64,000 nucleotides of DNA from Haloplanus sp. HW8-1 (lineage in GTDB: Archaea > Halobacteriota > Halobacteria > Halobacteriales > Haloferacaceae): the NCBI RefSeq assembly GCF_023703795.1, contig NZ_CP098518.1, forward strand, positions 1,054,001-1,118,000, in the 5' to 3' direction. Of this stretch, positions 54,165 to 64,000 are shown one piece after another. Made by a program: the position numbers and the translations under genes. Under the pieces are notes generated by a model. It had not been told where the DNA came from, did not search any database, and saw nothing but the letters and a program-made list of their open reading frames with translations. Numbering within the stretch: position 1 is the stretch's first letter; each line of letters opens with the position of its first letter.

Positions 54165-57071
54165 CTATACTGGGAACGCGAAGCACAGGTTCTCCACCTC
54201 CGGGGCGAGTGAGACTATCTGCGCCTTTCGTTCTAACTCCTGGCGACGACTCTCGATACGCTGTTCAAGTCTATTGAGACGCTCCTGTTGGCCGCGAATT
54301 GCGATGTCCATGTTCGACCCCGTCTCAGCCTTCTGTTCGTAGTTCTCGATGAATTCTTGGATTCGCTGACGCTCTGCTTCAGCATATTCTTCGAGATCGT
54401 TCAGTTCCTGTTGAGTTTCCTCGCGGCGACGTTCATACAGTTCTTCTTTCAGAGAGGCAACTCTCTGACTGACATAGCGATCAGCAGCCGCTCGCAACTG
54501 CCCTTGGTGCTCAATCAGAGATCGTGCGCGGTCCGCATCGGGCGAACCTTTGATGCTCTCTCCATCGACAACTCGTTGACCGAGGCGCCCTCGGGGATCT
54601 CGGTGGTTCGCATCGACATACACCGAAATCATGTCTTCGCGAATGACTTCACCCGTTCCGTCTTCAAACGTCACACGGTAGTTGTAGGCGATTCCCGGCT
54701 GGTCAACGAACGGAAGGAGCTTCAGACCGACATTACCCTGCTCACTCTCCAGCACTCGCTGCATGAGTCGCTGAACCAGTTCGTCGTCAGGAGAGACGTA
54801 ATCGATGCCATCGTGGTCCATGGCGAACTCTCGGCTGAACGTGAACGGGCCGTACTTTTCGTCAGTACCCTGCCGAAGGGAGCGAGGTAGTTCGGCTCGA
54901 TAGAGATTGGTCCCTGCCTTCTCGACGTCACCACCAAGCACCTCGATTCCGCGCTCGACGAACTCGTGGATGTCTGCTTCGGTCCCGTAGACATCCTCGG
55001 ACTCGTCCATGACTTCCTGGATCTTCTGTCGGCTCTCTTGATCGAACGTGCTCGTGTCGACGAGGCTGCGTTCGTACCACTCTTGGAGCGTGCGTTGGCG
55101 CTCGTCGATGAGTTCTTCGAGTTCCTCTTTCGTGGCACTCGCTGGTTCCTCGTTCCGGATAGACTCCATGATGAGCGAGTCGACGTTGATGTCGTCGAGC
55201 ATCCCAAGGACGTCGGCCGTGTTGCCGAGTTTCCCCCGGATGCTCTCGACCTTGTTCTGGAGCATGTCGAAAATCTCGCCCTCGCGAGTATCTTCGAACG
55301 TGAAGTTCCAGACCTTGACCTCTTCGTCCTGCCCGTAGCGGTGAAGGCGACCGATACGCTGCTCGAGGCGGTTGGGATTCCACGGCAGCTCGTAGTTCAC
55401 CATAATGTGGCAGCTGTGCTGGAGGTCGATCCCCTCACTCGCTGCATCAGTCGCAAAGAGGAGACGGGACTGCCCGTGGTTGAACTCCTCCTCGATACGA
55501 GCACGCTCCTCCTTGTCGACGTCACCGTGGATGACGAGAATCTCGTCGGCCCAGGGTTCGTCCATCACGAGGTCGAGAAGGTAATCCAGCGTGTCGCGGT
55601 ACTGGGTGAACAGCAAGAGCTTCTCGTCGGGTTGCTCCTCAAGCAACTGCTGGATGTAGCGGCGCACCTTCTGCGCTTTCGAGTCGACGGAGATGCTCTC
55701 TGCCAGCGAAACGAGATCGCGAAGCGTTTCGATCTCTTCCTCGAGTTGTGCGTCGCTCTCGGTGACGGTCAGCGCAGAGAGTTCCTCCTCAGCCCGTTGC
55801 TTGTCGTCTTCGCCGAGGTCTTCGCCGTCGAGATACGCTGACGCCTCCTCCGAGAGACGGGTGGTGCTTGACTGTTCGTCGACGAGGTCGCCCAAGCGAC
55901 GGCTCAGTGTCGCTTTGATGGCGCCGATGCTGCTGACGAGTCGCTTCTGCATGAGCGCCATCGCGAACCCGACCGCTGGTTCGTTCAGTTTCTCGGACCG
56001 GTTGTAGACGTTCTGTACGTAATCAGTAACCGCACGGTAGAACTGCCGTTCCTCGTGGGGCATATCGATTGGAATCGTGGTGACCTCACGGTCGGGGAAG
56101 ATGCGTTCGCCGTCGTCGTCGTACAGCGTCTGTTTCCCGCGTCGGATCATCACGCGGTCGACGGCCTCCTTCGAGAGATGCTGGTCCTCGGCGACGAGGA
56201 ACGGGTCGATGTACTCGACGAGCGAGCGGAACGCTTCGCCCTTGCCGTCGTGTGGCGTCGCGCTGAGGAGGAGGAGCGAGTCAGAATTACCGGCGACCCG
56301 CTCAACCATCTTCGACGTTTTACTCGGCGACTCTCCCCGCTTGGCGGCCTTGTGGGCTTCGTCGACCACCACGACATCCCAGAACGTCTCGTCGAGGGCG
56401 GGCTGGAACTCCTCCTGCCGGAGAAACGCCTGGCTCGTGACCAGTTGCTGATGGTCTTGGTCCCAGATATTGGATTCCTCGCCGAGTCGGCGGCGCTCTC
56501 CTTCGGCCCACTGCCTGTCGGCCGGCGTGAGGCCGATGTCGAAGAACCGATCCATGTCTCGGATCCACTTCTTCTGAAGGTGGGCAGGAACGACGAACAG
56601 GACACGCTCAGCGCGGTTTCGAGCGGTGAGTTCTTTGAGAATGAGGCCTGCCTCGATGGTCTTCCCGAGGCCGACATCGTCGGCGATCAGCGCGCGCTGG
56701 CGGAGCTTCTGCATCACCCAGTTGACCGCGGCGAGCTGGTACGGTTCGAGGCGAACTAGCGAGTTCGAGATGCTCAGTAGCTGGCCTTGCTCGTGGGCAA
56801 TCTGAAACTGGAGCGCCTGGGAACGCAGATCGAACCATTCGGCTGAGACTGCTTCGTGATCGGGATGCAGTTTATCGGCCGACGCTGGTTCCAACTCGGC
56901 GAGTCGATTGCGTTTTGACTCAATCTCGACATCGTCGATACAGACGGTCTTCACACCCGCGTCTTCGACGTACGCTCGCAGGTACTCAAGATCGCCGACT
57001 GAGTATGTTTTGATGACCTCGGCCGGAGTCCCGTTCAGGCGTATCGAGTCGCCAGGATCGAACGAATTCAT
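54165..57071 (-). CDS. brxHII: SNF2-family helicase of BREX (BrxHII-like)
   Basis: 968 residues. SNF2 motifs: LEPYQLAAVNWVM, ADDVGLGKTIEAGLIL (Walker A, ~131-145), VVVVDEAH (DEAH ~237-240), LLLSATPHDGKGEAF, DKEERARIEEEFNHG, ATDAASEGIDLQ (motif V) and RIGRLHRYGQDE (motif VI). The rest is helical with a coiled tail (~850-940). BrxHII helicases belong to type 3 and haloarchaeal type 5 BREX. Its ATG overlaps the preceding nuclease stop by 4 bp. I considered DISARM DrmD, but PglX and PglZ beside it point to BREX. Confidence 0.85.
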   Translation of the reverse strand: MNSFDPGDSIRLNGTPAEVIKTYSVGDLEYLRAYVEDAGVKTVCIDDVEIESKRNRLAELEPASADKLHPDHEAVSAEWFDLRSQALQFQIAHEQGQLLSISNSLVRLEPYQLAAVNWVMQKLRQRALIADDVGLGKTIEAGLILKELTARNRAERVLFVVPAHLQKKWIRDMDRFFDIGLTPADRQWAEGERRRLGEESNIWDQDHQQLVTSQAFLRQEEFQPALDETFWDVVVVDEAHKAAKRGESPSKTSKMVERVAGNSDSLLLLSATPHDGKGEAFRSLVEYIDPFLVAEDQHLSKEAVDRVMIRRGKQTLYDDDGERIFPDREVTTIPIDMPHEERQFYRAVTDYVQNVYNRSEKLNEPAVGFAMALMQKRLVSSIGAIKATLSRRLGDLVDEQSSTTRLSEEASAYLDGEDLGEDDKQRAEEELSALTVTESDAQLEEEIETLRDLVSLAESISVDSKAQKVRRYIQQLLEEQPDEKLLLFTQYRDTLDYLLDLVMDEPWADEILVIHGDVDKEERARIEEEFNHGQSRLLFATDAASEGIDLQHSCHIMVNYELPWNPNRLEQRIGRLHRYGQDEEVKVWNFTFEDTREGEIFDMLQNKVESIRGKLGNTADVLGMLDDINVDSLIMESIRNEEPASATKEELEELIDERQRTLQEWYERSLVDTSTFDQESRQKIQEVMDESEDVYGTEADIHEFVERGIEVLGGDVEKAGTNLYRAELPRSLRQGTDEKYGPFTFSREFAMDHDGIDYVSPDDELVQRLMQRVLESEQGNVGLKLLPFVDQPGIAYNYRVTFEDGTGEVIREDMISVYVDANHRDPRGRLGQRVVDGESIKGSPDADRARSLIEHQGQLRAAADRYVSQRVASLKEELYERRREETQQELNDLEEYAEAERQRIQEFIENYEQKAETGSNMDIAIRGQQERLNRLEQRIESRRQELERKAQIVSLAPEVENLCFAFPV

Positions 57072-57559
57072 TGCCCCTCTACTGGGTCAGATGACGACGT
57101 CTCGTCCTCTTTTTCCGTCTCTGTTCCAGTCGTATATTCACGAAATGCTCGTTCGAACGTATAGTCCTCGATCAGGTTCGCCTCGCTCGCGTTGTGGTCG
57201 CTCAATTCTCCTCTATCTTTTGTATTCACCCTGAAATCGGTTCTCCCGATTTCATCGAAGGCCACGTAGAATATCTCGTCTTCCTCGACGACATATCCAG
57301 CAAAAATATCGACCTGCCCATCCTGATACTGTTCAGTGAACAGCCGATATTTCCAGGGTTTCTCGTCGTTTTGGTTCGCCTTCTTGACCTGTGTCCGGAG
57401 GAGTTCGTCGTCTTTGTCAGCAACGAGGTCGTATTTGTACGACCCGTGGGTGTAGGACACTCGACATCCTTGACGAACGAGATGGGCTGCGACAGCGAGT
57501 TCGGCTTCTTCACCATCGATGTGACCCGTATTACGGTTCATCTCTACGCTCGCTTCCAA
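57068..57559 (-). CDS. PD-(D/E)XK-like nuclease in the BREX operon
   Basis: 163 residues (ATG 57559 or 57541). The fold is like group I intron-type PD-(D/E)XK nucleases: GEEAELAVAAHLVRQGCRVS (helix with first Glu), YTHGSYKYDLVADKDDELLR (Asp) and TQVKKANQND (the second K; D-x-n-QxK type). An acidic Ser-rich tail follows. It is not a standard BREX gene. It overlaps brxHII by 4 bp and follows pglZ by 61 bp, so all three are expressed together. By eye the gene is AT-richer than pglZ. It may be the effector or an add-on defence gene. Confidence 0.7.
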   Translation of the reverse strand: MEASVEMNRNTGHIDGEEAELAVAAHLVRQGCRVSYTHGSYKYDLVADKDDELLRTQVKKANQNDEKPWKYRLFTEQYQDGQVDIFAGYVVEEDEIFYVAFDEIGRTDFRVNTKDRGELSDHNASEANLIEDYTFERAFREYTTGTETEKEDETSSSDPVEGQ

Positions 57560-57620: not shown

Positions 57621-59900
57621 TTACTCTTGGGTGATCGTAACGAAGTTCAATACAAACTCTTGAGGGAGAACGCCGCCGTGGTAGAATCGGGCGTCCGGTA
57701 GTCCCCGGTTGCGGAAGCGTCGAATCGGGTCCGCGAGGACGCTAACCTTCGTGTCGTCGTCGAGGTAACCGAGGTGAGCGTTCTCGTCGAGAAGTACGCC
57801 AGGCGTATTCTCGTCGAGATCGGCGCCGGCAACCCACCGACGAGTCACTTTCTCGGCTTCATCCGGTGGGTGGATGTCGTCGATGTCGACGTTCTCTGGG
57901 AGTGAGACGAAGCCGTGATCGGCGAGGATGTACGCTCGGTCCCACTCGCCCTGGTCGATCTTCTCGCAGATGATGGCCGATATTTTCTCGATACGGTCGC
58001 TGAACACGCTCTCGAAGTCGATCAGTTCCTCCTCGCCCGCCTTATCGAGGTCGTTCCAGTAGTAGGCGACACGGGTGTTACTCCACCCCGACTCGTCGTC
58101 CTCGCTCTGCATGATGTAACTCCAGCCGTCGTCCTTCAGTATCTTCTCGCGCTGGTAGTTACTGATCTCGCGGCCGTTGCGTTCGGGAATCAGTTCCCCA
58201 TCGTCGAGTTCGGTGTTGAAACTGAACTTGCTGCCTGGTGTGAGGGCTGCCTTCCCAAACTCGGTGTCCGAGGGGAGCGTCCCGACCCAGGCGGTCTCGT
58301 CGACCTCGAGGCTGGGAAGGTCACGGCGGACCGATTCGGCCAGTTCGTGTGCGAGGTCGAAACGCAGTGCGTCGACGATGAACAACGCGACGCTCTGGCC
58401 ACTCTGGAGGTGTTCTTGCTCCTGGTCGAAAAACTGGTGCGCGTAGTTCTCACCCACGAACGGCGAACCAGCCTCGATTTGGTCGACGACGAGATCACCC
58501 AGGTCGCTGAGATAGTCGAGGTACCGCGACTCAGTCAGCGACGTGCGTAAGTCGTCGAGTGTCGCCGTCGCGGGGTGCTCTTCGGGGAGGTCATGTTCGG
58601 GCTCGCCCGAGACGACGAGAGTGTACACGGCGTTGTCGATCTGCCAGGTTCCGTCGTCGACGTCGCCGTAGAGGTCGACGACGTCGGTCGTATCGCCGCG
58701 TTCCTCCCACGTCTCGAGTTCGTGTGCCAGTTTGGCGACTTCGACGGCCTGCTCCCAGACGTGCGTCCACGGGACGTCGCCGTAGGTCGTTTCGAGACGC
58801 CGGTGGCGATTGGATGCACGAGTCGTGCACGTCTCGTACTCGCCGGCGTGGAATGCTTGCGTCCATTCGTCCCAGAGTTCGTGTTCGAGCGAGGCGTCGA
58901 CGGGACAGTCGGCGAGTTCCCACGGATCGTCGTGAGTGCGGAGGACATCGTGCCAGAAGCGAGCGTCAGGGTCGAGGTAGACGTGTGCCAGTTCCTCGGC
59001 ACGTTCGGAATCGACCTTGCTCAGCAGCGACTGGAGTTCGGGCCGGGAGATTCCCAGTCCGGAACTGGATTCGGGTCGGTATTCGGCGTCGAGCAGTGAC
59101 GTATCGAGACCTTCCTCGACGAGCCACTCGGCGACCGCCCAACGTCGCGTGCGCCTCACGAGCAACTCCTCGTCGGTGATTCCTTCGACGGCAGCGACGC
59201 CGTCGTCGACGAGGAGATCGCGAATCTTCACCAGGTCATCGGGATCGTCAGGGAGGTTTTCGGCGCCGTGTTCGAGCACGAACTGCACCGGGTCGTCGTG
59301 CCCGTCGAGGACGATCTTCGTCTGAAGGCCCTGAAGCGTCGGCAGACCACCCTCGCCGTTGAGCTCCCGGAAGAGCGTCTTCGCGACCTGCTCGCGGTCG
59401 CTCTCGTCGGCGTCCCCGCGAGCTTGTGAGCGGGGGGTCGTGGAGTCGTCCGAAAGATCGCTGGGCGATCTTTCGTGATCACGAGAGCGGCCATTGGCCG
59501 CTCTCGAACGACTCCGCTCCGCGGCGTCTTCGTAGGCCGTGCGGATCGAGGCCGCCTGGATGCGGTCGTTCTCGAAACAGCGTGCGGCGAGCTTGCCGAT
59601 GTGTGCTTCGACGACACCACCAGTGTTCTCGACGTCCTGGAACCAGTCCACGTCGTCGTTGTGTGCCTGGGGTACGTACCAGACGGTTCGGTCCCGGGGC
59701 GCGTCGGCGCGGAGCTCCAATGGCGACTGTTCGGCCGCGTGGAACTCACAGCCCAGCGAGTGGCTCACACTCTCGACGACGTCGCGAAGGTAGCCACCGT
59801 CGTCCCACCAGAGTACGACCGGCTCTTCGTCGGCTGCCTCGGCGATGGCAGTCTCGATGGCGTCTTCGGCGCACTGTGGGAGGGTTTTGGTTGCGGGCAT
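57621..59900 (-). CDS. pglZ: PglZ-domain protein of BREX
   Basis: 759 residues. The alkaline-phosphatase-like PglZ domain covers ~495-740: SVALFIVDALRFDLAHELAE (metal Asp), WVGTLPSDTEFGKAALTPGS, ILADHGFVSLP (DHG metal site) and RRWVAGADL. The N-terminal part (1-490) is helical with VVLWWDDGGYLRDVVE at the start. PglZ is a core BREX protein needed for both modification and exclusion. A palindromic in-frame insert (59442-59515) lies in the linker at residues ~129-153. It starts 2 bp after pglX. Confidence 0.88.
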   Translation of the reverse strand: MPATKTLPQCAEDAIETAIAEAADEEPVVLWWDDGGYLRDVVESVSHSLGCEFHAAEQSPLELRADAPRDRTVWYVPQAHNDDVDWFQDVENTGGVVEAHIGKLAARCFENDRIQAASIRTAYEDAAERSRSRAANGRSRDHERSPSDLSDDSTTPRSQARGDADESDREQVAKTLFRELNGEGGLPTLQGLQTKIVLDGHDDPVQFVLEHGAENLPDDPDDLVKIRDLLVDDGVAAVEGITDEELLVRRTRRWAVAEWLVEEGLDTSLLDAEYRPESSSGLGISRPELQSLLSKVDSERAEELAHVYLDPDARFWHDVLRTHDDPWELADCPVDASLEHELWDEWTQAFHAGEYETCTTRASNRHRRLETTYGDVPWTHVWEQAVEVAKLAHELETWEERGDTTDVVDLYGDVDDGTWQIDNAVYTLVVSGEPEHDLPEEHPATATLDDLRTSLTESRYLDYLSDLGDLVVDQIEAGSPFVGENYAHQFFDQEQEHLQSGQSVALFIVDALRFDLAHELAESVRRDLPSLEVDETAWVGTLPSDTEFGKAALTPGSKFSFNTELDDGELIPERNGREISNYQREKILKDDGWSYIMQSEDDESGWSNTRVAYYWNDLDKAGEEELIDFESVFSDRIEKISAIICEKIDQGEWDRAYILADHGFVSLPENVDIDDIHPPDEAEKVTRRWVAGADLDENTPGVLLDENAHLGYLDDDTKVSVLADPIRRFRNRGLPDARFYHGGVLPQEFVLNFVTITQE
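59442..59515. repeat. Nested palindromic insert in the pglZ linker
   Basis: Outer arms GGAGTCGT (59442-59449) and ACGACTCC (59508-59515) enclose two perfect hairpins: CGAAAGATCGC / GCGATCTTTCG (59451-59475) and CGAGAGCGGCCA / TGGCCGCTCTCG (59482-59506). The three-stem form looks like a mobile palindromic element read in frame, giving an Arg/Ser-rich linker (RSRAANGRSRDHERS). Confidence 0.7.
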
Positions 59901-59902
59901 GG

Positions 59903-62900
59903 CTACAGCACTTGGTCGTCGACGGTTTTCGACACGATCTCGGCGTCGGCAAGCGGCGTGATGTTGATTTCGACGCCGTGTTTCCGGTTGGGCTGATAGC
60001 CGGCGGTCGTGATCTCCGAGAGTGCGCGATCGGCCCAGTCCGACGGAACCTGCTTATCCACGGCTTGACAACGGTCGTCGATCTCCTCTGCCAGCGCCTT
60101 GAACTCGGCCAACGGCGGGAGGTCCCCCACGCGCTCGATCTCTTCGTCGTCGACCATCGCTTCTAGGTACTCCCGGTCGACGAGGCTGGGGTCGTCGAGG
60201 CCGGTCGCGAGCGAGGCGAGCAGGCGTTCGTCCTCGGTCAGAGTGTCGTGCGGGTTTCCGTCTTCGTCGAGAAGGGCGGCGCCCTCGCGGTCGAAGTAGT
60301 AGGTCATAAAGAGGATACCCGTACTGGAGTAGTGGTCCGAGCCTTTGAGCCGCCAGTTGAAGTAGTCGAACAGGTCGGCGAGATGCGCCTCGACAGGTTC
60401 GTCGCTCGGTCGACCGTACGCCTCGCAGGCGCGTTCGAGTTCGTCGAGGGCGTCGAGCCACTCGTCGCGCCACTCGTCGACGGCGTTCCAGAAGTTGTCG
60501 GAGAACGTCTCTTGGAACCACGCCTCGCCCTTGCGCTCGCGCAGGTCCGCCAGCGTCTCGAGGCGCTTGCGGGTCTCCTCGCGGAAGCCGGCGACCTTCG
60601 GGGCCAGTTCCGCGACGCGCTCGCGGTCCTCGACGTCGAAATCGCGCTCGTCGGTGCTGCCCAACTCTTGGAGCACGTCCTCGAAGACGGCGATCTGGTC
60701 GAGGCCGCTCGCACAGCGCTCGTACTGCTCCGCGGCCTCGGCCTGCTCGCTCGCCGACAGGGAGTCATCGCTCCGCCGACGGTTGGCCGCCGACCGGCGC
60801 TCGCGAAGCTCGGCTTTCTGCGGTTCGAGGTACTGGTTCGAGAGGCGGTCGAACAGCCCCGAGTCTAGGCTGTGGTAGTCGAGGAAGCACGCGAATCCCT
60901 CGCCGGTCGAGTCGGAGACGAGGCGCTCGGTGGTGAGCCGCCAGACTATCGGCGTGTTTTCCATCCGGTCGACGTGGTAGTCGAACAGGTCCTCGGAGAC
61001 GAACGCTCGGAGATTGGGGTACGCCTCCTCGGCGGCAGATTCGGCCCCGAGAATTTCGTCGACCTCGATCAGGCGGTCGTCGGCGTACTCGCCGTAGGCG
61101 TCCTCGAAGCGCTCGACGATCCGATCGAGCATGTCTGGCTGGTCGTCAGTCGAATACACCGGGATGATACCGTCATCCTCCTCACGGACGGCCTCCATCG
61201 CGAAGTGATGGACGAGGTCTTTGACTTGCTCGTCGATGTTGTCGGGGACTTCGGGAACGGATTCGGGGTCGGGGACTTCGCGGTCTTCGGGGGATTCAGC
61301 GGTTCGGAGGAAGATTTCTTGGCGAATATTTTTGCGTGTCTCTTCTTCAATTCCAATTTCATCATAAATGAGGCGATCAATCTCATCGGAGATCTCTTCT
61401 AGCCTGTTTTTTCGAATAAGGCTCTTCTTTTGTGCTTTTCTGGCAGCCTTTTTGATTGGTTTATCAACAGTTGGTGACTGCACGTGGAGATCGAGATCAG
61501 ATTTTGCTTGTTCTGCGTGTGGGTGCTGATAGCCAAAACTGGGTCTTGTTCTGTTCGGGAGTAGCTCTGGATGAGAATAGTATGGACTGATGGGATCATG
61601 GAGTCGCTGTTTCAGAACAATCGAATATTGTTCCTTACCTAATCTCTCCAGCTCGTCTACATCTTCAAGCTTCTCTACCCAAGGAACGCTTCCGACTTCG
61701 TTGGCATTCCAGTGGCGTTCTGTCGTTAAAGACAAAAACAGATTGTGGTACAGGCTTGAGTTTAGAATACTCATCATCTGCCACAGCGATTTTTCTTCCC
61801 TTGGGAACATCATGAACCCGGTGTGGCTAAACAGCCCCCCCGGGTAGTAGCCAAAGCGGCGGCCCGTCCGCTTAATATAGGTCCAAGTTAAGCCCGGTTC
61901 CTCGTATAATTCCTCGTGGGGTGTTCTTACCGTTGTACTAGACCGCTTCAATCTTGTTCCGCTTTTACCCCACTCTACCGTTTCTGTGACTTGAGGAGAT
62001 ATCCATGCCTCGGAGCCACCTTTGGAGATTGGCTTGAACTGATCGAAATCATTCAGTTCCCAATGCAACCGGGCAAAACGTGTGTCGTCTCCTGTCAGTA
62101 ATCCAGGAACGGCATTACAAACAGACTTCCCTTCAACATCTGCATGTTCAGCATCCAGTTTCACTGGAATATTATGGAGGTCCCTAACCGAACGAGGAAC
62201 AGAGTAACAGATTGGTGTGCCTGGTATTTTTGAAAACTCAGACAATTTCACCTCAAAGTGTCGCCTGACTCCACTCTCTTGTCCTGAAATTGAATTGAGA
62301 AGCTCTCTCTCCTTTGATTTTGTATCTATGTCGTGGAGTCGCAGGAACGTACCCTGTTTTGAATTTGATTTAGTATTCGTCTGGACGACAGTCCCAACAG
62401 TACCGACTGTTGCGTTGTCGAGGACGCCGTAGCCAAATTCTGCTAAGAAATCAAACCCCCCTTGGTCTCCAACAAAGTCTTCTCGGAAGCCCCGGAAGGC
62501 CCGTTTAAACATGAAACTCCAGGGGACTAGCATACCGACACGACCGCTCTGCTTTGATAGGCTTTCACATGCTTCAAAGAAATTGATGTAAAACTCTGCA
62601 GAATAGCTATAACGGTTATTTACATAGTTCTGAACAACGTCCGGCATCCGATTCTGCGACCCATACGGCGGATTCATCAACGCCACGTCGTAGTCCTGCG
62701 CCAGAATATCCAACAGACGCACGAAACTCCGCAAGTCCTGCGCCAGGAACGAGTCCCCCTCCCGATGTTGTTCCACCGCCTCCCGCAGACTGTGGAGCAC
62801 CTGCCCGAGCGTATGGCTCTCCCGCGGGTCGTCGCCGAGCGTCAACTGCGTACCCCCTACCTCGGCGTCGTCCTCGAACAGGTCCCCGAGGGTGCCGCGC

Positions 62901-64000
62901 ACGTCGAGCAAACTACCGAGCCCGTGGACTTCCTCGAAGGCGTCGAGGATGCGGTCGAGCGCCTCTTCGACCTCCGGATCGTCGCCGGCGACCTCGTCGA
63001 ACACCGCCTCGACGCCGTCGGCCTCGGCGATCGACGCGTCCGCGCAGACGATCCCGACCTCGGGGATGTTGAAGCCGTCGGCGCCCTCGGCCTCCGCACG
63101 GGTGCGGCCTTTCAAGTAGAGGTTGAACGCCGAGAGCTGACACGCACGCATGTCGAGGTCGACGCCGTAGAGGTTGTGTTCGAGGATCTTTCTAGGAATC
63201 TCCGCGCCGCTCAGGTCGGTCTCGGCGCGCCAGATTCGCTCCAAGACGTCGAACGCATAGAGGAGGAAGTGCCCGCTCCCACAGGCAGGATCGATCACGC
63301 GAAGCTCTTTCGGATGCTCGAACTCGGTCGGATCTCCCTCCTCCTCGCTCGGAACGAGGTAGGTACAGAAGTCGGCGATGTCCGGCGATTCGTCGGGCGA
63401 GAGCGGGCGGTTCTTGCGCTCCTCGGGGGCGAACGACTCCTGAGCGTCGACGACGTCCTGTAACTCACCGGTGTGTTCAAGATAGAGCTTCCCGAGCGAG
63501 TTGTCGGTGAGCATCCGGACGACCCAGTGAGGCGTGTAGAACTGGTTCGCCGGTGGGACGTCCTCAGGTTCGAGGCCCTCACGGTCGCCCTTGCGGCGCA
63601 AGTCGTCGAGCAGTTTGACGTTGTAGTATTCGTAGACCCAGCCGAGCACGTCGTCGGCCCGCCAGACTTCGTCGGGAACCGAATCGAGCTTCTCGCAGAG
63701 TTCTTCGAACGTGTCGTCGTCGGGGTCGATCAAACTGTAGGCCGACGAGCGATCGAAGAGGATCTCGATCTCTTCGGCGAGGTCGTCGCAGGCGTTGTGA
63801 TATGCTTCGAGGATGGCCTCGTCCTCCAGCAGGAACGCCTCGTGGACCAACGTCTCGGCGGCGGGCGTCAGGCCGTCGTCCTTGAAGACGGTGACCTCCT
63901 CGTCGACGAAGTCCCGCACTTCCATGCAGCGCAGTGCTGCGAGGCGATTGACGATGGTGTATCCCACGCCCGTGACGTACTGATCGAAGGCTTCAGACCA
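59903..64000 (-). CDS. pglX: PglX-type BREX DNA methyltransferase, 5' end outside window
   Basis: At least 1365 residues; the frame is open at the right edge (WSEAFDQYVTGVGYTIVN...). Motif I RVIDPACGSGHFLLYAF near residue 225 (from 63967) and motif IV NPPYG at 432 mark an N6-adenine methyltransferase; FYTPHWVVRMLTDNSLGKL is the PglX lead-in. PglX methylates non-palindromic sites that tell self from phage. Residues ~440-883 (62650-61320) are coded by much AT-richer DNA and include the likely target-recognition region. It starts the visible operon; brxB/brxC would lie upstream, outside the window. Confidence 0.9.
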   Translation of the reverse strand, partial: WSEAFDQYVTGVGYTIVNRLAALRCMEVRDFVDEEVTVFKDDGLTPAAETLVHEAFLLEDEAILEAYHNACDDLAEEIEILFDRSSAYSLIDPDDDTFEELCEKLDSVPDEVWRADDVLGWVYEYYNVKLLDDLRRKGDREGLEPEDVPPANQFYTPHWVVRMLTDNSLGKLYLEHTGELQDVVDAQESFAPEERKNRPLSPDESPDIADFCTYLVPSEEEGDPTEFEHPKELRVIDPACGSGHFLLYAFDVLERIWRAETDLSGAEIPRKILEHNLYGVDLDMRACQLSAFNLYLKGRTRAEAEGADGFNIPEVGIVCADASIAEADGVEAVFDEVAGDDPEVEEALDRILDAFEEVHGLGSLLDVRGTLGDLFEDDAEVGGTQLTLGDDPRESHTLGQVLHSLREAVEQHREGDSFLAQDLRSFVRLLDILAQDYDVALMNPPYGSQNRMPDVVQNYVNNRYSYSAEFYINFFEACESLSKQSGRVGMLVPWSFMFKRAFRGFREDFVGDQGGFDFLAEFGYGVLDNATVGTVGTVVQTNTKSNSKQGTFLRLHDIDTKSKERELLNSISGQESGVRRHFEVKLSEFSKIPGTPICYSVPRSVRDLHNIPVKLDAEHADVEGKSVCNAVPGLLTGDDTRFARLHWELNDFDQFKPISKGGSEAWISPQVTETVEWGKSGTRLKRSSTTVRTPHEELYEEPGLTWTYIKRTGRRFGYYPGGLFSHTGFMMFPREEKSLWQMMSILNSSLYHNLFLSLTTERHWNANEVGSVPWVEKLEDVDELERLGKEQYSIVLKQRLHDPISPYYSHPELLPNRTRPSFGYQHPHAEQAKSDLDLHVQSPTVDKPIKKAARKAQKKSLIRKNRLEEISDEIDRLIYDEIGIEEETRKNIRQEIFLRTAESPEDREVPDPESVPEVPDNIDEQVKDLVHHFAMEAVREEDDGIIPVYSTDDQPDMLDRIVERFEDAYGEYADDRLIEVDEILGAESAAEEAYPNLRAFVSEDLFDYHVDRMENTPIVWRLTTERLVSDSTGEGFACFLDYHSLDSGLFDRLSNQYLEPQKAELRERRSAANRRRSDDSLSASEQAEAAEQYERCASGLDQIAVFEDVLQELGSTDERDFDVEDRERVAELAPKVAGFREETRKRLETLADLRERKGEAWFQETFSDNFWNAVDEWRDEWLDALDELERACEAYGRPSDEPVEAHLADLFDYFNWRLKGSDHYSSTGILFMTYYFDREGAALLDEDGNPHDTLTEDERLLASLATGLDDPSLVDREYLEAMVDDEEIERVGDLPPLAEFKALAEEIDDRCQAVDKQVPSDWADRALSEITTAGYQPNRKHGVEINITPLADAEIVSKTVDDQVL

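Follow-up and report, generated by a model that had tools for sequence, protein, structure and literature searches.

When the middle of a methyltransferase gene departs in base composition from both of its ends, the question arises of how this part came to differ from the remainder and what it contributes to the protein. The question is raised here by X1, a pglX gene at the end of a 64,000-nucleotide stretch of Haloplanus sp. HW8-1 (referred to as the window; positions 1,054,001-1,118,000 of a 3.5-Mb contig), the close relatives of the gene being haloarchaeal.

Judged by profile matches and gene content, X1 is a PglX methyltransferase gene of 1440 aa within a complete BREX type 5 operon, in which the genes are ordered brxA, brxC, brxB, brxC, pglX, pglZ, PD-(D/E)XK gene, and brxHII. 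The gene is located on the minus strand, occupying positions 59903-64000 of the window with its start outside it (window-equivalent position 64225), and its product matches the BREX-5 PglX profile NCBIfam NF033454 over the full length with 2385 bits against a cut-off of 900. It adjoins pglZ (57621-59900, minus strand; NCBIfam NF033444, 1108 bits, cut-off 250), followed on the same strand by the PD-(D/E)XK gene (57068-57559; Pfam PF11645) and the brxHII helicase gene (54165-57071; PADLOC PDLC02504, 1916 bits, residues 3-968 of 968). Upstream of pglX, and entirely past the end of the window, are brxA, brxC, brxB, and a second brxC, identified by matches to PDLC02456, PDLC02474, PDLC02467, and PDLC02473, respectively, so that PglX, a neighbouring PglZ, brxA, brxB, two brxC, and BrxHII, the gene content that defines BREX type 5, are all present. 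The SAM-binding motif I, DPACGSG (63272-63292, minus strand; residues 312-318), is recognized from the sequence and from the Pfam N6_Mtase / Eco57I families and lies in the fixed N flank of the gene.

The GC content falls to 0.45-0.50 (about 0.47) at about 61250-62750, compared with 0.61-0.71 on either side. A two-boundary likelihood fit of third-position GC (GC3) places the AT-rich block at residues 530-992 (61250-62638, minus strand), with a start range of 518-534 and an end range of 970-995; GC3 is 0.46 inside and 0.84 outside, and the log-likelihood gain of 111 compares with at most 9.6 in 200 codon shuffles. The GC and GC3 plot that a preliminary description of this DNA had proposed is accordingly far from flat, with both flanks GC-rich and the block low. 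At fourfold-degenerate sites the GC fraction is 0.89 in the N flank, 0.44 in the block, and 0.89 in the C flank, which indicates that codon choice rather than amino-acid need carries the drop and rules out amino-acid content as its source. Low conservation was also rejected as a source, since conserved stretches of the block are AT-rich and variable stretches of the flanks are GC-rich.

Borders close to these are found in protein identity. Across 80 distinct full-length BREX-5 PglX genes, a sample of one genome per species that holds no strain pairs, identity falls after NPPYGS (residue 523) and remains so up to QEIFLRT (residue 969). In the fifteen closest relatives, identity to X1 is about 77-91% over each whole flank and only 39-60% in the block. 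The N border is mostly at 524-530, or else near 615 in genes whose block happens to resemble that of X1 at its start, and the C border is at 962-972 in most; in none of these relatives does conservation pass smoothly across both borders. Among 126 pairs with conserved flanks and a differing block, the N border falls at 522-532 in 77, with a second peak of 20 at 612-620; C borders cluster at 965-970 (53 pairs), with a tail. The cassette defined by protein identity thus comprises residues 524-968 (61322-62656, minus strand). The preliminary description had read the block as 61320-62650, in agreement almost to the codon, while its residue numbers (~440-883) refer to the truncated reading frame in the window. 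As in exchangeable cassettes of the HsdS kind, the borders are sharp and lie within conserved anchors. The N anchor (62657-62755, minus strand; residues 491-523) ends in the catalytic motif NPPYGS and is 99-100% identical among close relatives, and in the C anchor (QEIFLRT...; 61205-61321, minus strand; residues 969-1007) identity recovers. Both are likely crossover zones. Low GC3 in X1 continues for ~20 codons of conserved sequence beyond the C identity border, which would be expected of a crossover inside the conserved anchor.

The history of the block was found to be independent of that of its flanks. In Mantel comparisons of 34 close homologues, the two flanks correlate with each other (r 0.70), as do the two halves of the block (0.74), whereas the correlation with the block is -0.01 for the N flank and 0.13 for the C flank. 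With operon lineage labels taken from the brxC and pglZ genes, neither of which was used in the trees, each flank tree requires 6 changes of lineage and the block tree 27, against 29 for shuffled labels (67 of 300 label shuffles were equally low). Flank trees thus concur with the operon lineage and the block tree does not, in line with the earlier proposal of a swap independent of the flanks. Supported block clades mix operon lineages (L064 with L122; L046_3517 with L152, L153, and L154), the nearest blocks to X1 belong mostly to another lineage (L098, L056, L101, and L102) while its nearest flanks belong to its own, and some pairs have blocks 74-83% identical yet flanks 46-74% identical. The N-flank and C-flank trees have only 9 of 75 exact splits in common, which implies some recombination between the flanks as well, and given this low agreement split counts alone were not taken as proof. 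Since the block ignores operon lineage and its halves co-evolve, it behaves as an independently exchanged unit. It is thus very probably an exchangeable specificity cassette of BREX-5 PglX, swapped as a whole between its anchors, and homologous recombination is the mechanism that we infer. The cassette would span the region from just after motif IV (NPPY) to where the conserved C-terminal region begins, recombination at the NPPYGS and QEIFLRT anchors, whose DNA is conserved, would replace it whole, and the donors would be PglX genes at other BREX-5 loci, including those of different operon lineages and genera.

Comparison with structurally characterized homologues suggests what such a cassette carries. 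Residues 524-968 align in sequence to about 514-950 of E. coli BrxX, and an AlphaFold model of residues 200-1010 (mean pLDDT 74.7) matches DNA-bound BrxX 9ewz with a Z of 29.2, superposing 598 residues at 4.2 A; MmeI and DrdV match the model too. The corresponding stretch of BrxX contains DNA-backbone lysines after NPPY, a loop (587-601) that reads the last base, a hinge, and the target-recognition domain (TRD, 651-837), which by ConSurf is the most variable part of BrxX (PMC11842806). Within the cassette, the approximate equivalent of the specificity loop, located by alignment to E. coli BrxX and from PMC11842806, is at 62393-62437 (minus strand) and the approximate TRD at 61661-62239 (minus strand; residues about 663-855), so that the block does cover the target-recognition region, as had been supposed. 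On the alignment and the model, the cassette is predicted to hold the half of the methyltransferase fold that reads DNA, including the specificity loop and part of the base-flipping pocket, together with the TRD and a helical spacer, and the main DNA-reading parts, including loop and TRD, are thus predicted to move together. The preliminary description had assumed that a swap would keep the catalytic domain; the N border, however, lies directly after motif IV (NPPY), so the methyltransferase fold is split and its second half travels with the TRD. In BREX, PglX serves for modification as well as for recognition, and one cassette replacement should therefore change methylation and exclusion specificity together. 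By analogy with the structures and mutants of BrxX and PglX, a swap probably changes the recognized motif (PMC11842806, PMC11341690); engineered point changes in E. coli BrxX and Salmonella PglX do alter it (PMC11842806, PMC11341690). In E. coli-E. fergusonii hybrids with only the loop swapped, anti-phage defence was lost (PMC11842806), a result that may be explained by loop and TRD moving together and by the cutting of the fold in two.

No donor of the X1 block was found in 391 genomes of the class, where the closest block is 61% identical, and no recent swap event is therefore caught in X1 itself. Relatives of the block were absent from IMG/VR viral contigs, a phage collection yielded distant PglX-like matches only and no donor, and in a plasmid collection the identity of BREX-5 PglX blocks to the X1 block reached 58%. 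A search within the genome of X1 itself yielded, besides three widely separated full-length pglX genes, only one 36-base match. The two full-length paralogues, X2 and X3, might act as silent donors that reshuffle X1 in the manner of a shufflon, an explanation that is scarcely credible, since both are intact genes 0.2-0.8 Mb from X1, their blocks share only 48% and 40% identity with the X1 block, and no partial or silent pglX copy, the hallmark of a shufflon, was found at the BREX locus. Two loci that retain only the N end of PglX (L080 of Halomicrobium katesii and L086 of Halosimplex aquaticum) were considered as cassette junctions and rejected as broken genes, one having an early stop with an assembly gap after it and the other a stop beside a transposase-like reading frame.

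The composition of the block calls for an explanation of its own. The mean GC3 of 54 operon PglX genes follows a step function with steps at residues about 521 and 990, and of the operon PglX whose flanks are GC-rich, 92% have a GC3 drop above 0.1. Low GC is thus family-wide in haloarchaeal BREX-5 PglX, and the AT-rich block of X1 does not signal a single recent import. The sharp GC borders of X1 would suit one recent arrival of a foreign block in this gene alone, but this reading is very improbable, being largely refuted by the family-wide profile and left without a close donor. Rapid TRD evolution in place, with relaxed codon selection lowering GC and no exchange at all, would accord with the ConSurf variability of the TRD in BrxX (PMC11842806). 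Such a course is extremely improbable, given that blocks are common to different operon lineages against their flanks, that block and flank trees disagree, and that AT richness follows neither conservation in the block nor variability in the flanks; PglX genes outside operons, moreover, have GC-rich blocks, so the fold does not need AT.

A further explanation accepts that the cassette is exchanged and attributes its low GC to escape from GC-biased gene conversion, with cassettes too divergent to pair drifting to AT while the flanks are still converted. The low GC does end close to where homology between relatives runs out, and the type I hsdS genes of haloarchaea, just as hypervariable, have a GC3 below that of the neighbouring gene in 28 of 29 cases (mean difference 0.23; the neighbour is the longest same-strand reading frame in a short locus, only assumed to be hsdM). 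This account is a serious competitor, if somewhat unlikely, as the low GC of X1 reaches conserved codons on the far side of the C identity border and as haloarchaeal BREX-5 loci that are AT-rich throughout exist (L066, L068, L070, and L140, one of them on a plasmid), which indicates that an AT-rich pool is real. Low GC is instead the sign, we infer, of frequent exchange within such a pool, in which cassettes would circulate, with replacement outpacing their adjustment to the composition of the host. PglX copies remote from BREX genes are informative in this respect. The GC3 drop of such copies, defined by having no BREX gene within about 6-10 kb (twelve compared, one of them on a short contig with undefined context), is 0.07 against 0.21 in operon copies (p 0.0003), nearly flat on average, although the remote copies L058 and L069 still show a drop. 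Under exchange from an AT-rich pool, turnover of these copies would have ended and their AT signature would have been nearly lost.

Two such remote copies reside in the genome of X1 itself. X2, at 1.95 Mb, and X3, at 0.89 Mb, are full-length PglX with intact catalytic motifs and a block GC3 of 0.74. Directly downstream of X3, and next to X3 only, is a tyrosine recombinase gene (L011:9424-10434, minus strand) that may have brought X3 in. Altogether, eleven remote copies occur in nine genomes, all nine of which carry a brxC gene, against a background of strong brxC matches in only 62 of the 391 class genomes. An operon PglX is present as well in four of the nine, each of which has BrxHII; in the five with remote PglX only, a full BrxHII orthologue was found in none. 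Four of these five have brxA, brxB, both brxC, and pglZ with no full pglX between brxC and pglZ (in G240 the sequence read ends within brxA), and in the fifth, Halorussus ruber, the brxC match is interrupted and pglZ has no match. In E. coli, BREX methylation needs brxB, brxC, brxX, and brxZ, while loss of brxL abolishes protection and hardly affects methylation (PMC6326788), so a BREX core lacking its effector could still methylate. Provided that BrxHII takes the role of BrxL here, as we assume by analogy, the association across five genomes is consistent with, and suggests, "disarmed" BREX systems confined to methylation. In these the core (brxA, brxB, two brxC, and pglZ) would have survived the loss of BrxHII, with one remote PglX of settled composition as the only copy, yielding a domesticated epigenetic device, and in the genome of the window one core could serve three specificities (X1, X2, and X3). 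Tentatively, and with more doubt than confidence, the observations may be joined in one reading, according to which BREX-5 specificity is a detachable, traded module drawn by all lineages from one AT-rich pool, with PglX also acting in trans and some BREX systems disarmed.

The place vacated by pglX in such cores is variously occupied. Intact small reading frames of 120 aa in Halorubrum sp. 48-1-W (L159:12367-12729, plus strand) and 135 aa in Haladaptatus sp. DYF46 (L160:12463-12870, plus strand) lie between brxC and pglZ and fuse the ~50 N-terminal residues of PglX to roughly 65-90 C-terminal ones, a full-length PglX being present elsewhere in the genome; they are either deletion scars kept for the translation of pglZ or docking adaptors. 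Decayed remnants of the reading frame at this place occur in G240 and G166, and in G335 a winged-helix regulator gene (MarR/TrmB-like, with an HVO_2833 C-terminal domain; L157:11610-12479, plus strand) replaces pglX between brxC and pglZ.

Other variants of the BREX-5 locus were also observed. Two pglX genes flank pglZ in L045, L046, L048, L049, L060, L107, L111, and L118, where one core may serve two specificities. In a divergent BREX-5-like layout (L050, L064, L066, L068, L070, L083, L085, L093, L119, L132, L140, and L153), brxA, brxC, and brxB point away from pglX-brxHII, and several of these loci, one on a plasmid (L070), have a pglX that is AT-rich throughout. Frameshifts, gaps, or insertions break pglX in L085, L060, L120, L123, L129, L130, L144, L080, and L086, in agreement with the frequent pglX disruption already remarked in print (PMC9122589).

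In the literature searched, no report was found of a fixed-border cassette in BREX-5 PglX, of its independence of operon lineage, or of its AT signature, nor of remote PglX beside BREX cores without BrxHII. The system is thus of a known kind, and the fixed-border, lineage-independent, AT-rich cassette and the helicase-less split loci are, within that literature, new details. If the cassette reading is true, this defence probably shifts its target sequence by cassette exchange between many species, a case at the level below the gene in which the specificity part of a defence can evolve apart from the machinery that relies on it. For re-targeting BREX, the segment bounded by NPPY and the C-terminal anchor, rather than the loop alone, supplies natural crossover points. 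The low-GC mark in common with HsdS provides an inexpensive cassette finder that perhaps separates actively exchanged from settled specificity genes, and the BrxHII-less cores with remote PglX make it testable whether BREX can turn into a plain methylation system.

Among known systems, the X1 operon is like BREX type 5, which is treated as a subtype of type 1 (PMC12839542), in brxA, brxB, two brxC, pglX, pglZ, and brxHII, and X1 has the same fold and motif order as E. coli BrxX and Salmonella PglX (9ewz, 8c45, and 8q56). As a BREX type 5 system, the operon would be expected to methylate a non-palindromic motif and to exclude phage lacking that modification. In contrast to the published BrxX hybrids, the natural borders of the X1 family lie at NPPY and before the C-terminal region and do not delimit the loop alone. 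Type I HsdS likewise has exchangeable specificity domains, with a similar GC3 drop in haloarchaeal hsdS, but is a separate subunit, whereas the PglX cassette sits inside the methyltransferase gene. Type IIL/IIG enzymes (MmeI and DrdV) and type III Mod resemble PglX in combining methyltransferase and TRD in one chain, and in these one-chain enzymes a single change alters modification and restriction together; they carry or pair with a nuclease, whereas BREX works via a multi-protein core.
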